This document shows positions 3,021 through 8,561 of a stretch of DNA of 8,561 nucleotides, piece by piece. This DNA comes from Ktedonobacter sp. 13_1_20CM_4_53_11 (lineage in GTDB: Bacteria > Chloroflexota > Ktedonobacteria > Ktedonobacterales > Ktedonobacteraceae): assembly GCA_001919995.1 (NCBI GenBank), contig MNIY01000105.1, positions 1 through 8,561 on the forward strand, in the 5' to 3' direction. The position numbers and the translations under genes were made by a program. The notes beneath the pieces were generated by a model. It had not been told where the DNA came from. It searched no databases and saw only the letters and a list, made by a program, of their open reading frames with translations. Numbering within the stretch: the stretch's first letter is position 1; each line of letters starts with the position of its first letter.

Positions 3021-3650
3021 TCAATGCTCTTCTGCATGCACGCGGAGCCCATCGACGAATAGACGGCGCATGCCAGCAGAGATCTGCTCAAGACTGAACT
3101 GGCGGCCTGTGCGTTGGAACAGAAACAGCGGCGGAGTGATGGCCGCATAGATGGCATCAGCGGTGAAGGCGATATTGAGATCCACTGCCTCCCCCTGTTC
3201 CACCGCTCTCGCCAGCAGGGAGCTGAGGTGCGCGTGGAGGGTGCCATAAAAAGGACCTTGATAGTACACGGAACTGCCTTGCGGCCGCTGGATAGCCGCG
3301 AGCAATGGGACGTGTGACTCGATCAGGTGAAGGAGTTCGTCAATCAGCCAGCCAAGCTGGTTCAGGGCTGGCTCTCCACTGTGTGCGAGAGCGGTATCGA
3401 TCCGCTCCCAAAATGCCGCGTTATCTTCCATCAGCAACGCCTCGCAGAGTTCCCCCTTATGGGCAAAGTGCCGGTACAGGGTGCCAGGACCGAGTCTTGC
3501 GACCTGGGCAATTTCATTCATACTCGTGGCCTCCACGCCCTGCTCGGCAAAGAGCTGTCGAGCCAGAGTGAGCAGACGCTGGCGGTTCTGGGCGGCGTCA
3601 CTGCGCTCGCGCCGCTGCACGGCCTTTGCCTCATGCAACATATCAGACAT
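3021..3650 (-). CDS. TetR/AcrR family transcriptional regulator
   Basis: 209 residues from the chosen start. The N-terminal TetR HTH covers about residues 22-68: RQRLLTLARQLFAEQGVEAT, then SMNEIAQVARLGPGTLYRHF and HKGEL, the family signature. The C-terminal ligand domain (about 75-205) is helical and was not matched to a specific ligand. ATG at 3650 is preferred because AGGAGGAAGGAG (plus-strand 3658-3669) sits 7 nt upstream. An in-frame ATG at 3686 (AGGGG upstream) would add 12 residues, and a TTG at 3704 is unlikely. The gene reads away from a hydrolase unit across a divergent promoter that carries two matched palindromes, so it probably represses both that unit and itself. The DapB-like gene follows on the same strand. 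TetR proteins usually lose DNA affinity on binding a small molecule. Confidence 0.94.
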   Translation of the reverse strand: MSDMLHEAKAVQRRERSDAAQNRQRLLTLARQLFAEQGVEATSMNEIAQVARLGPGTLYRHFAHKGELCEALLMEDNAAFWERIDTALAHSGEPALNQLGWLIDELLHLIESHVPLLAAIQRPQGSSVYYQGPFYGTLHAHLSSLLARAVEQGEAVDLNIAFTADAIYAAITPPLFLFQRTGRQFSLEQISAGMRRLFVDGLRVHAEEH

Positions 3651-3697
3651 ACCCGTTCTCCTTCCTCCTGATCCTTCATTTTTCATGGCTTTTCCCC

Positions 3698-3726
3698 TTG
3701 ACAAACGGAGAGTTCTCCGCTATGAT
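3698..3726 (+). promoter_or_regulatory. Sigma70-type promoter of the hydrolase unit
   Basis: TTGACA (3698-3703) and TATGAT (3721-3726) are separated by exactly 17 bp, a near-consensus housekeeping promoter. Operator O2 fills the spacer, and the predicted start (about 3733) lies at the edge of operator O1. Repressor binding should block it completely. The transcript would have a leader of about 250 nt before the broken esterase and then the CocE-type hydrolase. Confidence 0.85.
3705..3720. promoter_or_regulatory. TetR operator O2
   Basis: ACGGAGAGTTCTCCGC has perfect 6-bp arms CGGAGA/TCTCCG around a 2-bp centre (3706-3719). It matches the core of O1 at 13 of 16 positions and lies 30 bp from it centre to centre, about three helical turns, so both sites face the same side of the DNA. 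It occupies the spacer of the rightward promoter. Confidence 0.82.
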
Positions 3727-3730
3727 TTTC

Positions 3731-3754
3731 TTATGCGGAGATATCTCCGCATAA
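3731..3754. promoter_or_regulatory. TetR operator O1, 24-bp perfect palindrome
   Basis: TTATGCGGAGAT is followed directly by its reverse complement ATCTCCGCATAA. The site covers the predicted transcription start of the rightward promoter and touches the leftward -10, so one dimer could repress both directions. A perfect two-fold palindrome next to a tetR gene is the usual form of a TetR-family operator. Confidence 0.88.
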
Positions 3755-3762
3755 TTATACCA
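3754..3762 (-). promoter_or_regulatory. Extended -10 promoter of the tetR gene
   Basis: The minus strand reads TGGTATAAT, a perfect TATAAT with the upstream TGn extension. No good -35 is seen (TAGTCT at a 17-bp spacing is poor), as is common for extended -10 promoters. The start would fall inside O1, which implies autorepression of tetR and the downstream DapB-like gene. Confidence 0.7.
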
Positions 3763-3980
3763 GAAAAAGAACAGCAAGACTATGGAGAAAGAGCGTAACG
3801 ACTCGTCCGTGGAGTACCCTCCTGGCTGTTGAATGCCTGACTTTGGCGCTCTTGTTGGAGGCGAGGGATCAAACCATTGGGGCCAGGGCTTTGCCGCGCA
3901 TTGCTGGTGACCTGCGCAGCTCCTCCCTCTATGCGTGTGGAGGAGGACATCGGCTCCATCCTCAATCTAAGGAGTAGACG
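3763..3980 (+). other. Long leader between promoter and broken esterase, no recognised gene
   Basis: About 220 bp of transcribed leader. It contains only short frames, such as a 16-codon frame from ATG 3783, and a CTCCTCC/GGAGGAG inverted repeat (loop 12) at about 3920-3945. One frame ends in ATGA overlap with the esterase start at 3981. It may be the remains of a deleted gene, but no protein family could be recognised. Confidence 0.4.
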
Positions 3981-4752
3981 ATGACATCGAGACATCTTGT
4001 TGATCGCGAGCTTGTTGCCATGCTCGATAGCTTTCCCGGCCTGGAACTGACTGATGAAACTGTGAGACAGATGCGCACCTTGATGAAGGAAATGTGATCC
4101 CAGATGGGTGCGAATCTGTCCACATTCCCTGACATTTCCGTCAGTGAGCGCTTCGTCCCCGGTCCAGAAGGTGCGCCTGAGGTGCCGGTGCTGGTCTACC
4201 TGCCAATCGCCGCCCAAGCACCGCTCTCGGCCTTGCTCTGGATTCACGGCGGCGGCTCTGTGATGGGCGAAGCCTCGCAGGACGACCTCGCGGTCTCGCA
4301 GATCGTCTCAGCTGTTGGATGCGTCGCGGTCTCGGTGGACTACCGCCTGGCACCCGAAACCCCTCATCCAGGGCAGATCGAGGATGGTTATGCGGCGTTA
4401 CGCTGGTTGTCTACCCACGCTGGGGAATTGGGAGTCGATCCCGCCCGCATCGCCATTGGTGGCGCGAGCGCGGGAGGGGGACTCTCCGCTGGGTTGGCGC
4501 TGCTCACCCGCGACCGTGGCGAAATGCCGCATCTGTTTCTGGAGGAAGATCTGGAGTATGCCCGTCGGCGCGTCGCGGGCAGGTGTGCCCACCGAGTTGC
4601 ATGTCTCTCCTGGCGCGTTCCATGGCTTCAATCTGGTGGCAGCAGCCTCGGTCTTGCAATCCGCACTGCGCGATCAGGGAGATGCGCATCTCTCGCGCTT
4701 TTCACCAACCCGCAGAAGCGTCAAGCTCTGCGAAGGAACATCCAATGGATAG
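3981..4752 (+). pseudogene. Broken HSL-family (family IV) alpha/beta hydrolase/esterase
   Basis: The start is good: AAGGAG 6 nt before ATG, then MTSRHLVDREL, the usual N-terminus of this hydrolase group. Codon 39 (4095-4097) is TGA. The same frame then continues with the oxyanion motif HGGG (4245-4256), VDYRLAPE, and the nucleophile elbow GGASAGG with the catalytic Ser codon at 4467-4469. After RDRGEMP the sequence jumps at about 4530 to LFLEEDLEYARRR. In relatives roughly 80-100 residues lie between these parts, including the catalytic Asp just before LF. An extra G in the run at 4577-4579 then shifts the frame, and the end is read one frame over as AGVPTELHVSPGAFHGFNLV, with the catalytic His codon at 4621-4623, to TAG at 4750-4752. 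Three independent lesions, one removing the catalytic Asp, mean no active enzyme. Family members have about 310 residues. Reinitiation at ATG 4104 would give a defective 236-residue product. Confidence 0.9.
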
Positions 4753-4790
4753 ATGAAGAGCATACATTTCGTAAAAAGAGAGCAATTCAT

Positions 4791-4805
4791 ATTTTCTCAG
4801 AAAAT
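4791..4805. repeat. AT-rich 15-bp palindrome before the CocE-type gene
   Basis: ATTTTCT-C-AGAAAAT is a perfect inverted repeat around one base, in the AT-rich 100-bp gap between the esterase remnant and the hydrolase. It may be a minor regulatory site or a weak stem-loop. It does not resemble O1 or O2, and no clear promoter accompanies it. Confidence 0.35.
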
Positions 4806-4852
4806 TTCACGTAGAAGGTTGGATCTGCTTCTTTGAGAACAGGAGGACAACG

Positions 4853-6589
4853 ATGAACATTGTGATTGAAAAAAACGTGATGGTCGCGATGCGCGACGGC
4901 GTGCACTTGGCCGCTGATGTCTATCGACCAGTTGAGGAAGGACAGCATCCGGTGCTCCTCATGCGCCTGCCCTATAACAAAGACCTGCCGGGCAGGCTCG
5001 CGGCGTTTGTGAGCACGGCGTTCCGAGCCGCTCAGCAGGGATATGTGGTGGTGCTTCAGGATTGCCGGGGACGGTTTGCCTCCGAGGGCGAGTTCTATCC
5101 ACAGTTCGACGATGCCAACGATGGCGTGGATACCATCCACTGGATCGTCGAGCAGCCCTGGGCGAATGGCAAGGTCGGGATGATCGGTGGCTCCTATCTT
5201 GGGTTTACTCAGTGGCTGCTGGCCAAGGAGCATCCCGAGGCTCTGCGGGCCATCGCTCCCCAGGTAACTACCTCGAACTATTACCAGACCCCTATGCGTC
5301 ACGAGGGAGGGGTGTTCGAGCTTGGGGTCCTTTTCTGGGCGCTCTCGATGGTTCCCGAAGAAGTGCAACGACGCATGCGCCAGGGACAAGCAAGTAGGGA
5401 ACAGATGGGAGCCATCATGCAGGCGATGCGTGATCCCTCGGCGCTGATGGCGCATCTGCCCCTCGTCGATCAGCCCTTGCTGCGCGAGTTCGCTCCCTGG
5501 TATCTCGATTGGCTGAACCATCCCACCTATGATGACTACTGGAAGCGCATCGCGCATAGCGAGTATTACGAGCAGTTAACGGTTCCTACCCTCAACATGG
5601 GTGGCTGGTATGATCTGTTCCTGGGCGGGACGCTGGCCAATTACGTCGGCATGAAACAGCGTGGGGGCAGCGTTGTGGCACGCGCCCACCAGCGCCTAGT
5701 CATCGGTCCCTGGTCACACACCAACGACATGGGCATGTTCTCGGAGCGGTCGTATGGTCTGGCGGCAAGCAGCGCGGCCATTGATCTCGAAGGGATGCAA
5801 TTGCGCTGGCACGATCACTGGCTCAAGGGAGAGGAGAATGGTGTGGAGCAGGACAAGCCGGTGAAGATCTTTGTGATGGGCCTGGATCAGTGGCGCGACG
5901 AAGACGATTGGCCGCTGCCGGATACGCAGTACCGCCCCTATTACCTGCACAGTGGTGGGCATGCCAATAGCGCGACCGGGAATGGCACGCTTTCCCCCGA
6001 TGCCCCAGCAGAGGAGCCAGAGGATGTCTATCTCTATGATCCACGCCACCCCGTGCCGACCGTTGGTGGCGCGATCCTGATCGATCTAGCTCCTGTGGAA
6101 GGACCGCGCGATCAGCGCGCGGTGGAAGCGCGGGAGGATGTGCTCTGCTATAGCACCCCGGTGCTGGAGAAACCGGTTGAGGTGACCGGCCCCATTGCCC
6201 TGGTCTTGTATATCTCATCCTCGGCCCGCGATACCGACTTCACTGGCAAACTGGTCAATGTGTACCCCGATGGCCGCGCCGAGATCCTCACCGATGGAAT
6301 TCTGCGCGCCCGCTATCGCGAATCGTTCACCGAGGCGAAGCTGCTAGAACCGGGACAGATCTACGAACTGCGCCTGGATCTTTGGGCCACCTCCAACCTG
6401 TTCAAAGCGGGACACCGCATCCGCCTGGAGGTCTCCAGTTCCAACTTCCCGCGTTTTGATCGCAATACCAACACAGGCGGAGTCATCGAGCGACAAACCG
6501 AGAAGGACCTCGTGCAAGCCGTCAACCGGATCTACCATGATGCCGCGCACCCCTCGCATCTGATTTTGCCCATCATCGAGCGCAACTGA
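4853..6589 (+). CDS. CocE/NonD family hydrolase (X-Pro dipeptidyl-peptidase S15 type)
   Basis: 578 residues, close to the about 570-580 of cocaine esterase CocE. An N-terminal alpha/beta hydrolase domain (about 1-145 and 240-345) is split by a helical cap (about 145-240). The nucleophile is Ser114 in GGSYLG, the acid is Asp254 in GGWYDLFL, and the base is His289 in GPWSHT. A C-terminal jelly-roll domain (about 350-575) ends with the typical GHRIRLEVSSSNFPRFDRN. The family cleaves esters or amides of small acyl compounds, and some members act on glutaryl-cephalosporins or proline dipeptides. The natural substrate here is unknown. No signal peptide is visible, so it is probably cytoplasmic. The start has AGGAGG 6 nt upstream. 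The gene is probably transcribed from the TetR-controlled promoter at 3698, through the esterase remnant. A Tn3-type miniature element begins 16 bp behind its stop. Confidence 0.95.
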   Translation: MNIVIEKNVMVAMRDGVHLAADVYRPVEEGQHPVLLMRLPYNKDLPGRLAAFVSTAFRAAQQGYVVVLQDCRGRFASEGEFYPQFDDANDGVDTIHWIVEQPWANGKVGMIGGSYLGFTQWLLAKEHPEALRAIAPQVTTSNYYQTPMRHEGGVFELGVLFWALSMVPEEVQRRMRQGQASREQMGAIMQAMRDPSALMAHLPLVDQPLLREFAPWYLDWLNHPTYDDYWKRIAHSEYYEQLTVPTLNMGGWYDLFLGGTLANYVGMKQRGGSVVARAHQRLVIGPWSHTNDMGMFSERSYGLAASSAAIDLEGMQLRWHDHWLKGEENGVEQDKPVKIFVMGLDQWRDEDDWPLPDTQYRPYYLHSGGHANSATGNGTLSPDAPAEEPEDVYLYDPRHPVPTVGGAILIDLAPVEGPRDQRAVEAREDVLCYSTPVLEKPVEVTGPIALVLYISSSARDTDFTGKLVNVYPDGRAEILTDGILRARYRESFTEAKLLEPGQIYELRLDLWATSNLFKAGHRIRLEVSSSNFPRFDRNTNTGGVIERQTEKDLVQAVNRIYHDAAHPSHLILPIIERN

Positions 6590-6600
6590 GCGAATAGACG

Positions 6601-6633
6601 AGCAAGGGGTCAGCATATCCACCCCTGCTTTTT
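6601..6633 (+). terminator. Intrinsic terminator of the hydrolase unit, formed mostly by the mobile element end
   Basis: AGCA-A-GGGGT pairs with ACCCC-TGCT (9 pairs, one bulged A, 10-base loop) and runs into TTTTT at 6629-6633. It begins 11 bp after the CocE-type stop. The GGGGT arm and everything behind it belong to the left inverted repeat of the miniature element; only AGCAA is flanking DNA. Confidence 0.65.
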
Positions 6634-6796
6634 GTACGCTAAGCTGGTAAATTGGCTCTACAAGCCAATTGGCCCTTCGCACTCAAACATTTCGAGGATC
6701 TTATCCTCCCAATCCCCTTATGAAGGCTCACAAGGGCAGCAGTGAGCCCCTTGTTTTGCTTAACGTACACTTTTCAAGTTTGGATGTGCTGACCCC
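6606..6796. mobile_element. Tn3-family-derived miniature inverted-repeat element (TIME-like), 191 bp
   Basis: The ends are inverted repeats of exactly 38 bp: left 6606-6643, right 6759-6796 on the other strand. Both start GGGGTCAGCA and end GTACG(C/T)TAAG, with 28 of 38 positions identical and the differences concentrated in the middle 12 bp. A 38-bp repeat starting GGGG and ending ACGYTAAG is the signature of Tn3-family transposons. The 115-bp interior codes for nothing recognisable. It contains an 8-bp stem AATTGGCT/AGCCAATT (6650-6670) and ACAAGGG/CCCTTGT followed by TTT (6730-6756). Such an element could be moved only by a Tn3-type transposase acting in trans. The expected 5-bp target duplication is absent (AGCAA against TATCT), so the copy is old, rearranged, or formed by recombination. 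Confidence 0.78.
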
Positions 6797-7076
6797 TATC
6801 TCAGCTCAACTGTAAATCCCAACATGCTGCTTCTGCACATCCATGCACGCTGACCGCAAAGGTGCGGCCAATACCATAGAACACAGCTAGGAAGTAGCGA
6901 AACGAGCAGGAAGAGTATTTACGTCTCTAACAGCTCAAAATGGCTGTTCTAGGAAGGAATCCTTGCCAGATCTCACCCAGACGAGACCAACGTCTCCGTA
7001 TGGGGTTTGTGTGCCTTCTCCAGTGCCGGGATATCGCCTCTTCCTCGCGAGATCGCTGAGCGCTCCGCTCTTGTGC
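6797..7076. other. Intergenic region without a recognised gene
   Basis: 280 bp between the miniature element and the end of the MFS gene. Only small stems are seen: CCGCA/TGCGG near 6860, AACAGC/GCTGTT at 6929-6948, GAGAC/GTCTC near 6985, and GAGCG/CGCTC at 7058-7070. None has a T tract, so no intrinsic terminator for the MFS gene can be pointed to. No open frame has domain character. Confidence 0.5.
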
Positions 7077-8324
7077 TCATCTGGTCACGCTTTTCGTCTT
7101 CCCGTCCAGGCCGCGCATCGTTGGAGAGAGCAATCCTCCTCCCCTCGCCAGAATACATGCGATGCCAGAAAGACCAATCACCAGTGCAGATGAGAGGTAT
7201 TGGAGAAGGAGCCCGCCCATCAATGTTCCGAGTGGTGCCGCCGCAGTCGTCAGCGCAAGACGCGCACCGAAGACCTGTCCTCGCATGGTCGGCGGAATGA
7301 GTCGCTGCAACAGTGAGGCTTCTATCGGCACATACGGAGCCCAGGAGCACGCTCCCAGAGCGAGACACAGGAGCGCCAGGGGCAACGAATGGAAGATCAT
7401 CAGCGGGCAAAGGAAGCCTCCCCACAGGAGAGCGATCAGCGGTTGGCTCAACCCTGGCCGGAACCGGGCAGCAACGAAACTGGTGAACAACGCGCCGATC
7501 AGTGCTCCTACCCCAAAGCCCGTCCAGAGCAAGCCGTATCCCTGGACTCCAGCATGCAGGATCTTGTCGCTGTAGAGAGGCAGGGCTGCTTCCAGAGGAC
7601 CATACGAGAAAAAGAAGAGCACTGATAAGCTCGTGAGCAGACGGATCTCCTTGGTGCGGACGAGCAGATCAAAGCCACTCAACCATGTTTGCTGAACTTC
7701 CGACGCTTCGTTGAACGTATGACGAGCGATGGGAGGCAGCGAAAAGACGAGGAACCCCATGAGGAGGAAACTCATCGCGTCGATCAACAGGGCGAAAGCT
7801 CCTCCCACCTCGGCGACCAGTATTCCGGCGAGTGCGGGACCAAGCAGCGACGCGAATTGCAAACTCGTTGAAGCAAGGGCATTGGCTCGTTCAAGAGCAC
7901 CCTCTGGAACGAGATGTGGCAAAATGACGCGAACGCCTGCTCCCGTGGCAGGAGAGAGCGCTCCTGCCAGCAAAACCAGTGTATAGATCTGCCACAACTG
8001 CAAGACTCCCACCCATGAGAGAACGGGAATGGCCCCGATCAGCAGGGCACGCGTGCAGTTATCTATTCCCATCACCACACGAGGCTGCCAGCGATCCAAC
8101 ACTGTTCCAAGCAACGGTCCTGTCAGCATGGCGGGGAGTTGAAAACACAGAAGCACGAGACTGAGAGCTACCCCGGACCCGGTGAGCTGCAAGACGAACC
8201 AGAGTAAAGCAATCGTCGTAAATTGATCTCCCAGATAGGAAATACTTAGCCCCAACCATAAGCGCAGAAAGGCCGGGGAACGCAATGGGTGACGTTCGAC
8301 CCTCAATTTGAGGGAAGTGAACAC
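7077..8324 (-). CDS. MFS transporter, DHA3-type drug/siderophore exporter
   Basis: 415 residues from the chosen start, the usual size of a 12-helix MFS exporter. The N-terminus LRSPAFLRLWLGLSISYLGD and the loop 2-3 motif A (GPLLGTVLDRWQPRVV) are typical of the DHA3 group that includes macrolide efflux and enterobactin exporters. The hydrophobic segments are spaced as expected, with a central cytoplasmic loop (PPIARHTFNEASEVQQTW). It should be an inner-membrane, proton-driven exporter; the cargo cannot be read. GTG at 8324 is preferred as start because GGAAAGGAG lies 7 nt upstream. ATG at 8342, 6 codons earlier, has no comparable ribosome binding site and would give 421 residues. The gene stands alone on its strand, convergent with the hydrolase unit. 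No resistance or siderophore gene is next to it. Confidence 0.92.
   Translation of the reverse strand: MFTSLKLRVERHPLRSPAFLRLWLGLSISYLGDQFTTIALLWFVLQLTGSGVALSLVLLCFQLPAMLTGPLLGTVLDRWQPRVVMGIDNCTRALLIGAIPVLSWVGVLQLWQIYTLVLLAGALSPATGAGVRVILPHLVPEGALERANALASTSLQFASLLGPALAGILVAEVGGAFALLIDAMSFLLMGFLVFSLPPIARHTFNEASEVQQTWLSGFDLLVRTKEIRLLTSLSVLFFFSYGPLEAALPLYSDKILHAGVQGYGLLWTGFGVGALIGALFTSFVAARFRPGLSQPLIALLWGGFLCPLMIFHSLPLALLCLALGACSWAPYVPIEASLLQRLIPPTMRGQVFGARLALTTAAAPLGTLMGGLLLQYLSSALVIGLSGIACILARGGGLLSPTMRGLDGKTKSVTR
8300..8314. repeat. 15-bp palindrome at the start of the MFS coding region
   Basis: CCCTCAA-T-TTGAGGG is a perfect inverted repeat 10 bp inside the coding region counted from the GTG start. 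In mRNA it would be a tight hairpin only if the loop opens. It could be an operator or a chance repeat. Confidence 0.25.
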
Positions 8325-8342
8325 GAACAGGCTCCTTTCCAT

Positions 8343-8561
8343 GACATTTCACCCGTCTCGGCATGACAGAAAGCGGCTCTTGACTCATTGCTTCCAACTC
8401 AATCATGTGTCGAATCGGAGAGATACATCATTCGCACGAAAAATGTGAGAGAGGGCCGATTTATCAGGTCCTATCCCGATTGATCGGTGATCGCTGCAGG
8501 ACACGAAATGCCTATTGGAGACGACCGTGCACCTGTGCAGACGCAGGCAGAATCGCACAAA
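8343..8561. other. Upstream region of the MFS gene, no recognised gene
   Basis: No coding frame is supported in these 219 bp up to the window edge. A short palindrome CCGAT-TG-ATCGG lies at 8476-8487 and could be a regulator site. No convincing promoter was seen for the MFS gene. The region may also carry the promoter of a gene beyond the right edge. Confidence 0.4.

Follow-up and report, generated by a model that had tools for sequence, protein, structure and literature searches.

Two palindromic elements, designated O1 and O2, occupy region 3698-3762 between a minus-strand tetR gene (3021-3650) and a plus-strand hydrolase gene in the Ktedonobacter sequence analysed here (hereafter the window, 8,561 nucleotides in full). 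This arrangement raises the question of whether the two elements serve the adjacent TetR protein as operators common to two divergent promoters, and of how their unusual CGGAG lettering arose. The features that bear on this question are listed in Table 1.

Table 1. Features of the window around the two palindromic elements
Feature	Position	Strand	Description
tetR	3021-3650	-	TetR/AcrR-family repressor, 209 aa; N45 and P55 track the operator letters
Ribosome-binding site of tetR, AGGAGGAAGGAG	3658-3669	-	Read from sequence
-35, TTGACA	3698-3703	+	Rightward (hydrolase-side) promoter; constant distance to O2 in relatives
O2, CGGAGAGTTCTCCG	3706-3719		Inverted repeat of 14 bp, six of its pairs matched; within the spacer of the rightward promoter; the other candidate operator
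-10, TATGAT	3721-3726	+	Rightward promoter, spacer 17 bp; predicted start near 3733
O1, TTATGCGGAGATATCTCCGCATAA	3731-3754		Perfect 24-bp palindrome, centre 3742.5; core CGGAGATATCTCCG at 3736-3749; candidate operator over both predicted transcription starts
Extended -10, TGG-TATAAT	3754-3762	-	Promoter of tetR, directed leftward; start predicted near 3747; one-base overlap with O1
Decayed alpha/beta hydrolase (Abhydrolase_3)	3981-4740 (ends approximate)	+	Behind the rightward promoter
CocE/NonD family hydrolase	4853-6589	+	Intact, 578 aa; TIGR00976, E 2.4e-165

Inspection of the two elements bore out most of the sequence-only reading from which this study started. O1 is the perfect 24-bp palindrome that it had described (3731-3754). 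O2 had been taken for a 16-bp palindrome, which was wrong: its central pair (G/T) and the first pair beyond the 14 bp (A/C) are mismatched, and O2 is therefore a 14-bp inverted repeat. The proposed common core, CGGAGA-NN-TCTCCG, and the 30-bp distance between the two centres were both verified. One exact copy of the core CGGAGANNTCTCCG lies at 3706-3719 and another at 3736-3749, with no further match in the window even when up to two mismatches are allowed, a loose search in which 27 of 200 shuffled sequences likewise gave two matches. None of 400 sequences drawn from a first-order Markov model of the window contained a palindrome of at least 24 bp (the longest was 22 bp); nor did any of 400 contain two same-arm 6-2-6 inverted repeats within 60 bp. 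O2 does fill the 17-bp spacer of a TTGACA/TATGAT promoter, as had been proposed, and O1 does meet the leftward extended -10, with an overlap of one base; the exact TATAAT of this promoter lies 4 nt before the O1 core. The transcription starts at 3733 and 3747 are predictions. By sequence, two like elements thus lie between divergent genes and overlap both predicted promoters, which is the dual-operator layout of the Tn10 tet type. A weak third site of the GGAG type (TGGAGTACCCTCCT, 3812-3825) is present on the hydrolase side of O1; it probably arose by chance and was excluded from the residue-base count described below.

The product of tetR belongs to the TetR/AcrR family by both domain and fold, with a helix-turn-helix (HTH) domain and a separate ligand/dimer domain. 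It contains the TetR_N helix-turn-helix (PF00440, E 3.4e-14, 52.8 bits against a cut-off of 24), and its AlphaFold2 model (mean pLDDT 88.8) is all-helical with ten helices, including the HTH. Foldseek matched this model to TetR-family structures, with 5wm9_A as the top match (TMq 0.67, 18% identity). The first gene behind the rightward promoter is a pseudogene. This gene, whose remaining frame matches Abhydrolase_3 (PF07859, E 2.4e-32), contains a TGA in frame at 4095-4097, has lost an internal segment and changes frame; in a tblastn comparison with the intact relative at locus L126, it aligned at 63% over 192 residues and at residues 269-280, with residues 283-332 in another frame. Because this first gene is broken, the CocE/NonD hydrolase downstream is probably the live target of the promoter at present, a link that is drawn from its position. 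It was rejected as the ancestral partner: no relative of it lies behind the two Ktedonobacter cassettes for which about 8 kb of sequence is available (L178 and L179).

To compare the intergenic regions of related tetR genes, we collected homologous proteins of the window TetR (198, of which 120 were listed, metagenomic TetRs of 73-92% identity among them); an alignment of 30 led to at least 80 loci from species genomes. Of 400 Chloroflexota genomes searched with the single window protein, 27 gave matches, and a search for viral relatives found none. Loci among the matches listed were kept when their upstream DNA reached 150 bp, which left 105 and dropped the shorter ones, and a pair was defined as two NGGA-N6-TCCN sites 24-40 bp apart. 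Among these listed matches, such a pair was present in 52 of the 105 loci, the window included, at distances of 25-37 bp, and absent from the other 53; in a separate survey, 32 of 105 loci had no site of this spacing. The sites are concentrated upstream of tetR, with 128 in 30.45 kb of upstream DNA versus 135 in the remaining 753.8 kb of the same loci. According to the record titles, the pair-bearing loci among the matches listed include Chloroflexota, Truepera (Deinococcota), Cohnella (Bacillota), Rubrobacteraceae and Amycolatopsis (Actinomycetota). This conservation beside a clade of TetR genes was observed directly, and it supports, strongly if indirectly, the proposal that the palindromes are operators of the adjacent TetR common to two divergent promoters. 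At one locus (L003, 4911-4984), three operator-like sites follow one another at intervals of 30 bp.

Removal of identical copies left 46 of the 52 pair-bearing loci, in which the promoter elements are placed regularly around the tetR-nearest site, the counterpart of O2. The TTGACA of the divergent promoter lies exactly 2 nt from this site in 35 of the 46 loci, and in 38 when one mismatch is allowed, compared with 0 exact and 7 one-mismatch occurrences at 966 control positions; six of the remaining eight loci appear to have TTGACA offset by one base. On the other side of the site, at a distance of 1 nt, a -10 element within two mismatches of TATAAT is present in 39 of the 46 loci (control, 53 of 1,334). 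Therefore, the filling of the 17-bp spacer by O2 is a family trait. The same cannot be said of the suggestion that two dimers sit on one DNA face. Because the spacing varies from 25 to 37 bp without preference for a helical phase (619 of 2,000 uniform draws reached the observed clustering), same-face geometry was rejected as a conserved feature.

The extent of symmetry bears on how many dimers each element may accommodate. It is possible, but in our judgement unlikely, that two overlapping TetR dimers bind each palindrome in the manner of QacR or CprB, in which case O1 by itself would be a full operator for four subunits, with O2 as a weaker accessory site. The perfect 24-bp symmetry of O1 is in keeping with this, as is the literature on related proteins: one report (PMC4150764) groups CprB, two dimers of which bind a 22-bp semi-palindrome, with QacR, CgmR, SlmA and Ms6564 as dimers of dimers, and gives single-dimer members sites of 15-17 bp. 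The window TetR also shares its fold with the gamma-butyrolactone receptor-like proteins CprB and ScbR, and its best NCBIfam match is the ScbR family. However, this match (NF041196) scores 60.9 bits against a cut-off of 150, and the protein is thus not assigned to the ScbR-type butyrolactone receptors. Furthermore, only the central 14 bp are consistently symmetric across the 46 loci, which is close to the length of a single-dimer site, and O2 of the window has only six matched pairs.

The letters of the half-sites vary between loci, and this variation follows the TetR protein. The x in the G-x-GTLYR motif is residue 55 of the window TetR, with which helix 3 begins in the model (56-62 in the model's 210-residue numbering, which has one extra residue in front). 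In the 73 loci for which both x and a site were available, base 5 was C in 33 and T in one of the Q-type loci, C in all 34 K-type loci, and G in the three P-type and two I-type loci. Base 6 was A in 31 and G in three of the Q-type loci; the K-type loci had T (22), G (6), C (5) or A (1). The half-site is accordingly GGACA with Q, mostly GGACT with K, and GGAG with P, as in the window. One Q-type locus (L030) is mixed: of its four half-sites, one is CGGAG. N stands at residue 45 in each of the five GGAG loci compared and in none of the 67 GGAC loci. By mutual information, N45 outranks P55 for base 5, and for base 6 P55 is outranked by both column 101 and N45. Shared ancestry limits the weight of these counts: the association of P or I with G comes down to three phylogenetically independent pairs, which agree throughout (p 0.25), and that of Q and K to two supported pairs.

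One genome (G456) encodes three paralogues, each with matching sites, namely TGGACAATTATCCA/TGGACAACTGTCCG for the Q type, TGGACTATGGTCCA/CGGACGTCCGTCCG for the K type and TGGAGCCTCCTCCA for the P type. Four P-type TetRs (L071, L076, L077 and L079) are without a site of the standard spacing. The latter three have a one-base-longer form, CGGAGA-N3-TCTCCG, and D at residue 45; this longer form was also looked for at L071, where none was found. Residues 45 and 55 presumably align with Arg28 and Gln38 of Tn10 TetR, both of which contact bases. In the CprB crystal structure, K43, which aligns with P55 of the window, is among the direct base contacts described (PMC4150764); one of the two residues linked to the letters therefore touches bases in a related structure. 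The window can be read as holding the cassette in its CGGAG form, where other loci mostly have CGGAC, a reading that fits recognition-helix residue P55 together with N45.

The cassette was also searched for by DNA alone, with the protein left out of the pattern. Of 400 Chloroflexota genomes, 20 contained the pattern, at 22 places in all; its reversed form, the control, had no match. By tblastn, a TetR homologue is located beside 21 of the 22, counting L125, where only a 35-residue TetR piece remains at the contig end, and L133 and L134, where the homologue belongs to a distant TetR subfamily. Seventeen of the 22 matches are known loci from which the pattern had been derived, and four of the five new ones adjoin TetR. 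In the class of genome G002, eight matches were found in 6 of 158 genomes; five of them were new (L136-L140), four with TetR beside them. L136, L137 and L138, found in this way, fit the residue-base pattern, and the K-type L139 is without A. L133 and L134 have a GGAG half-site cassette beside the distant subfamily (GIGTLYRNF) and a divergent short-chain-dehydrogenase-like gene, which suggests that the cassette layout is wider than the clade of the window TetR. In Actinomycetota, a blind search for CGGAGA pairs gave 22 matches in 18 of 396 genomes, and only one of the 22 (L162, GVGTVYRRF) adjoins a TetR-like helix in a motif scan. Therefore, the motif alone is not predictive in GC-rich genomes, and this result counts against its blind use.

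Two of these loci, L126 (G360) and L140 (G456), have a full cassette with no TetR gene within the surrounding 1.5 kb; the former cassette fronts a hydrolase and the latter, as read by eye, an MFS-like gene. Regulation in trans or loss of the repressor gene is possible at both. Such loci would also be expected if the palindromes served another regulator and TetR were a mere neighbour, but we consider this very improbable, given that 21 of the 22 cassettes found by DNA alone adjoin a TetR homologue and that the half-site letters co-vary with TetR residues 45 and 55. Moreover, L140, an orphan cassette, has GGAG half-sites, and a P-type TetR encoded elsewhere in G456 suits it. An RNA-hairpin role for the palindromes, as attenuator or terminator, is scarcely credible and was rejected from the placement of O2: a terminator-like pattern does exist at 3706-3719 (two such sites in the region versus 1.1 expected from shuffles), but O2 is fixed in position relative to the -35, its letters vary while symmetry and placement persist, and its position upstream of the predicted rightward start would leave it out of the rightward transcript.

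We thus consider it highly probable that O1 and O2 are the two operators of the TetR encoded at 3021-3650, through which the hydrolase side and tetR would be repressed together and released by a ligand. Binding, repression, induction and the ligand are what we infer, as follows. When no ligand is present, TetR dimers would occupy both O1 and O2. The protein at O2 would fill the stretch that separates the -35 from the -10 in the rightward promoter, and that at O1 would cover both promoter starts and the edge of the leftward -10. The target promoter would then be blocked at two points, its spacer and its start, and the tetR promoter at its start. Transcription of the hydrolase side and of tetR would be repressed jointly, and a small molecule would release both. 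From the placement of the sites, tight repression in both directions is plausible.

For TetR proteins, a pair of operators serving divergent promoters is a classic arrangement. In the tetR/tetA region of Tn10, a TetR-family repressor and divergent promoters are combined with palindromic tetO1 and tetO2 between them, the centres of which are about 30 bp apart. The window has the same components, with two palindromic candidate operators between its divergent promoters, and this resemblance in overall layout to the Tn10 region suggests that its switch works like one of a known kind. In contrast to Tn10, the operator letters are different, one operator is placed in the -35/-10 spacer of the target promoter, and the target is a hydrolase rather than the TetA pump. 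Rv0078 (EthR2) of Mycobacterium tuberculosis, which faces a divergent alpha/beta hydrolase gene, is the protein of the top structural match 5wm9_A, yet the sequence identity is as low as noted above.

The controlled genes differ between cassette loci. Twenty divergent ORFs from the 46 loci encode YceI (4), MFS (3), ABC transporter (3), Abhydrolase_3 (2), SDR (2), DUF6069 (1) and F420H2-dependent quinone reductase (1) proteins, and four have no family, that of L001 reflecting a poor choice of ORF. In Ktedonobacter relatives, the divergent gene encodes a hydrolase of the family to which the broken gene of the window belongs (Abhydrolase_3). The residue-base pattern, which is likewise a direct observation, and the conserved spacer-operator cassette with swapped targets are the new parts of this system; a literature search, with most subscription papers outside its coverage, found no report of the cassette or of a residue-base code. 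We give even chances to a broader interpretation, in which residues 45 (helix 2) and 55 (start of helix 3) would set operator bases 5 and 6 by a short recognition code (Q55, GGACA; K55, GGACT and relatives; P55 or I55 with N45, GGAG). One portable promoter-operator cassette would then have been retained across at least four phyla while repressor specificity and controlled gene were swapped, paralogues within one genome would be insulated from each other, and operators would be predictable from protein sequence.

TetR proteins are very numerous, and for most of them, to our knowledge, the operator has not been described. In the present case, conserved DNA allows the probable operator of an entire TetR clade to be read, with its letters tied to two residues. 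If the pattern holds in binding, it would become possible to predict operators for members that are still uncharacterised and to select orthogonal repressor-operator pairs from nature. For the window itself, the analysis provides a concrete motif and an explanation of the CGGAG lettering. The palindromes do yield a usable, testable motif, as had been anticipated. The wider regulon expected from a genome search did not emerge, CGGAGANNTCTCCG having 0 matches in the 3.2-Mb assembly of a near-identical strain (G001; reversed control, 1 + 1 matches). This assembly is without window 3600-8561, save for weak matches of a CocE paralogue, and its lack of the motif therefore says little about the operator itself. 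Directly after the CocE/NonD gene of the window, an inverted repeat with 45-nt arms, 73% complementary and 113 nt apart (6600-6802), looks like a small MITE-type element.
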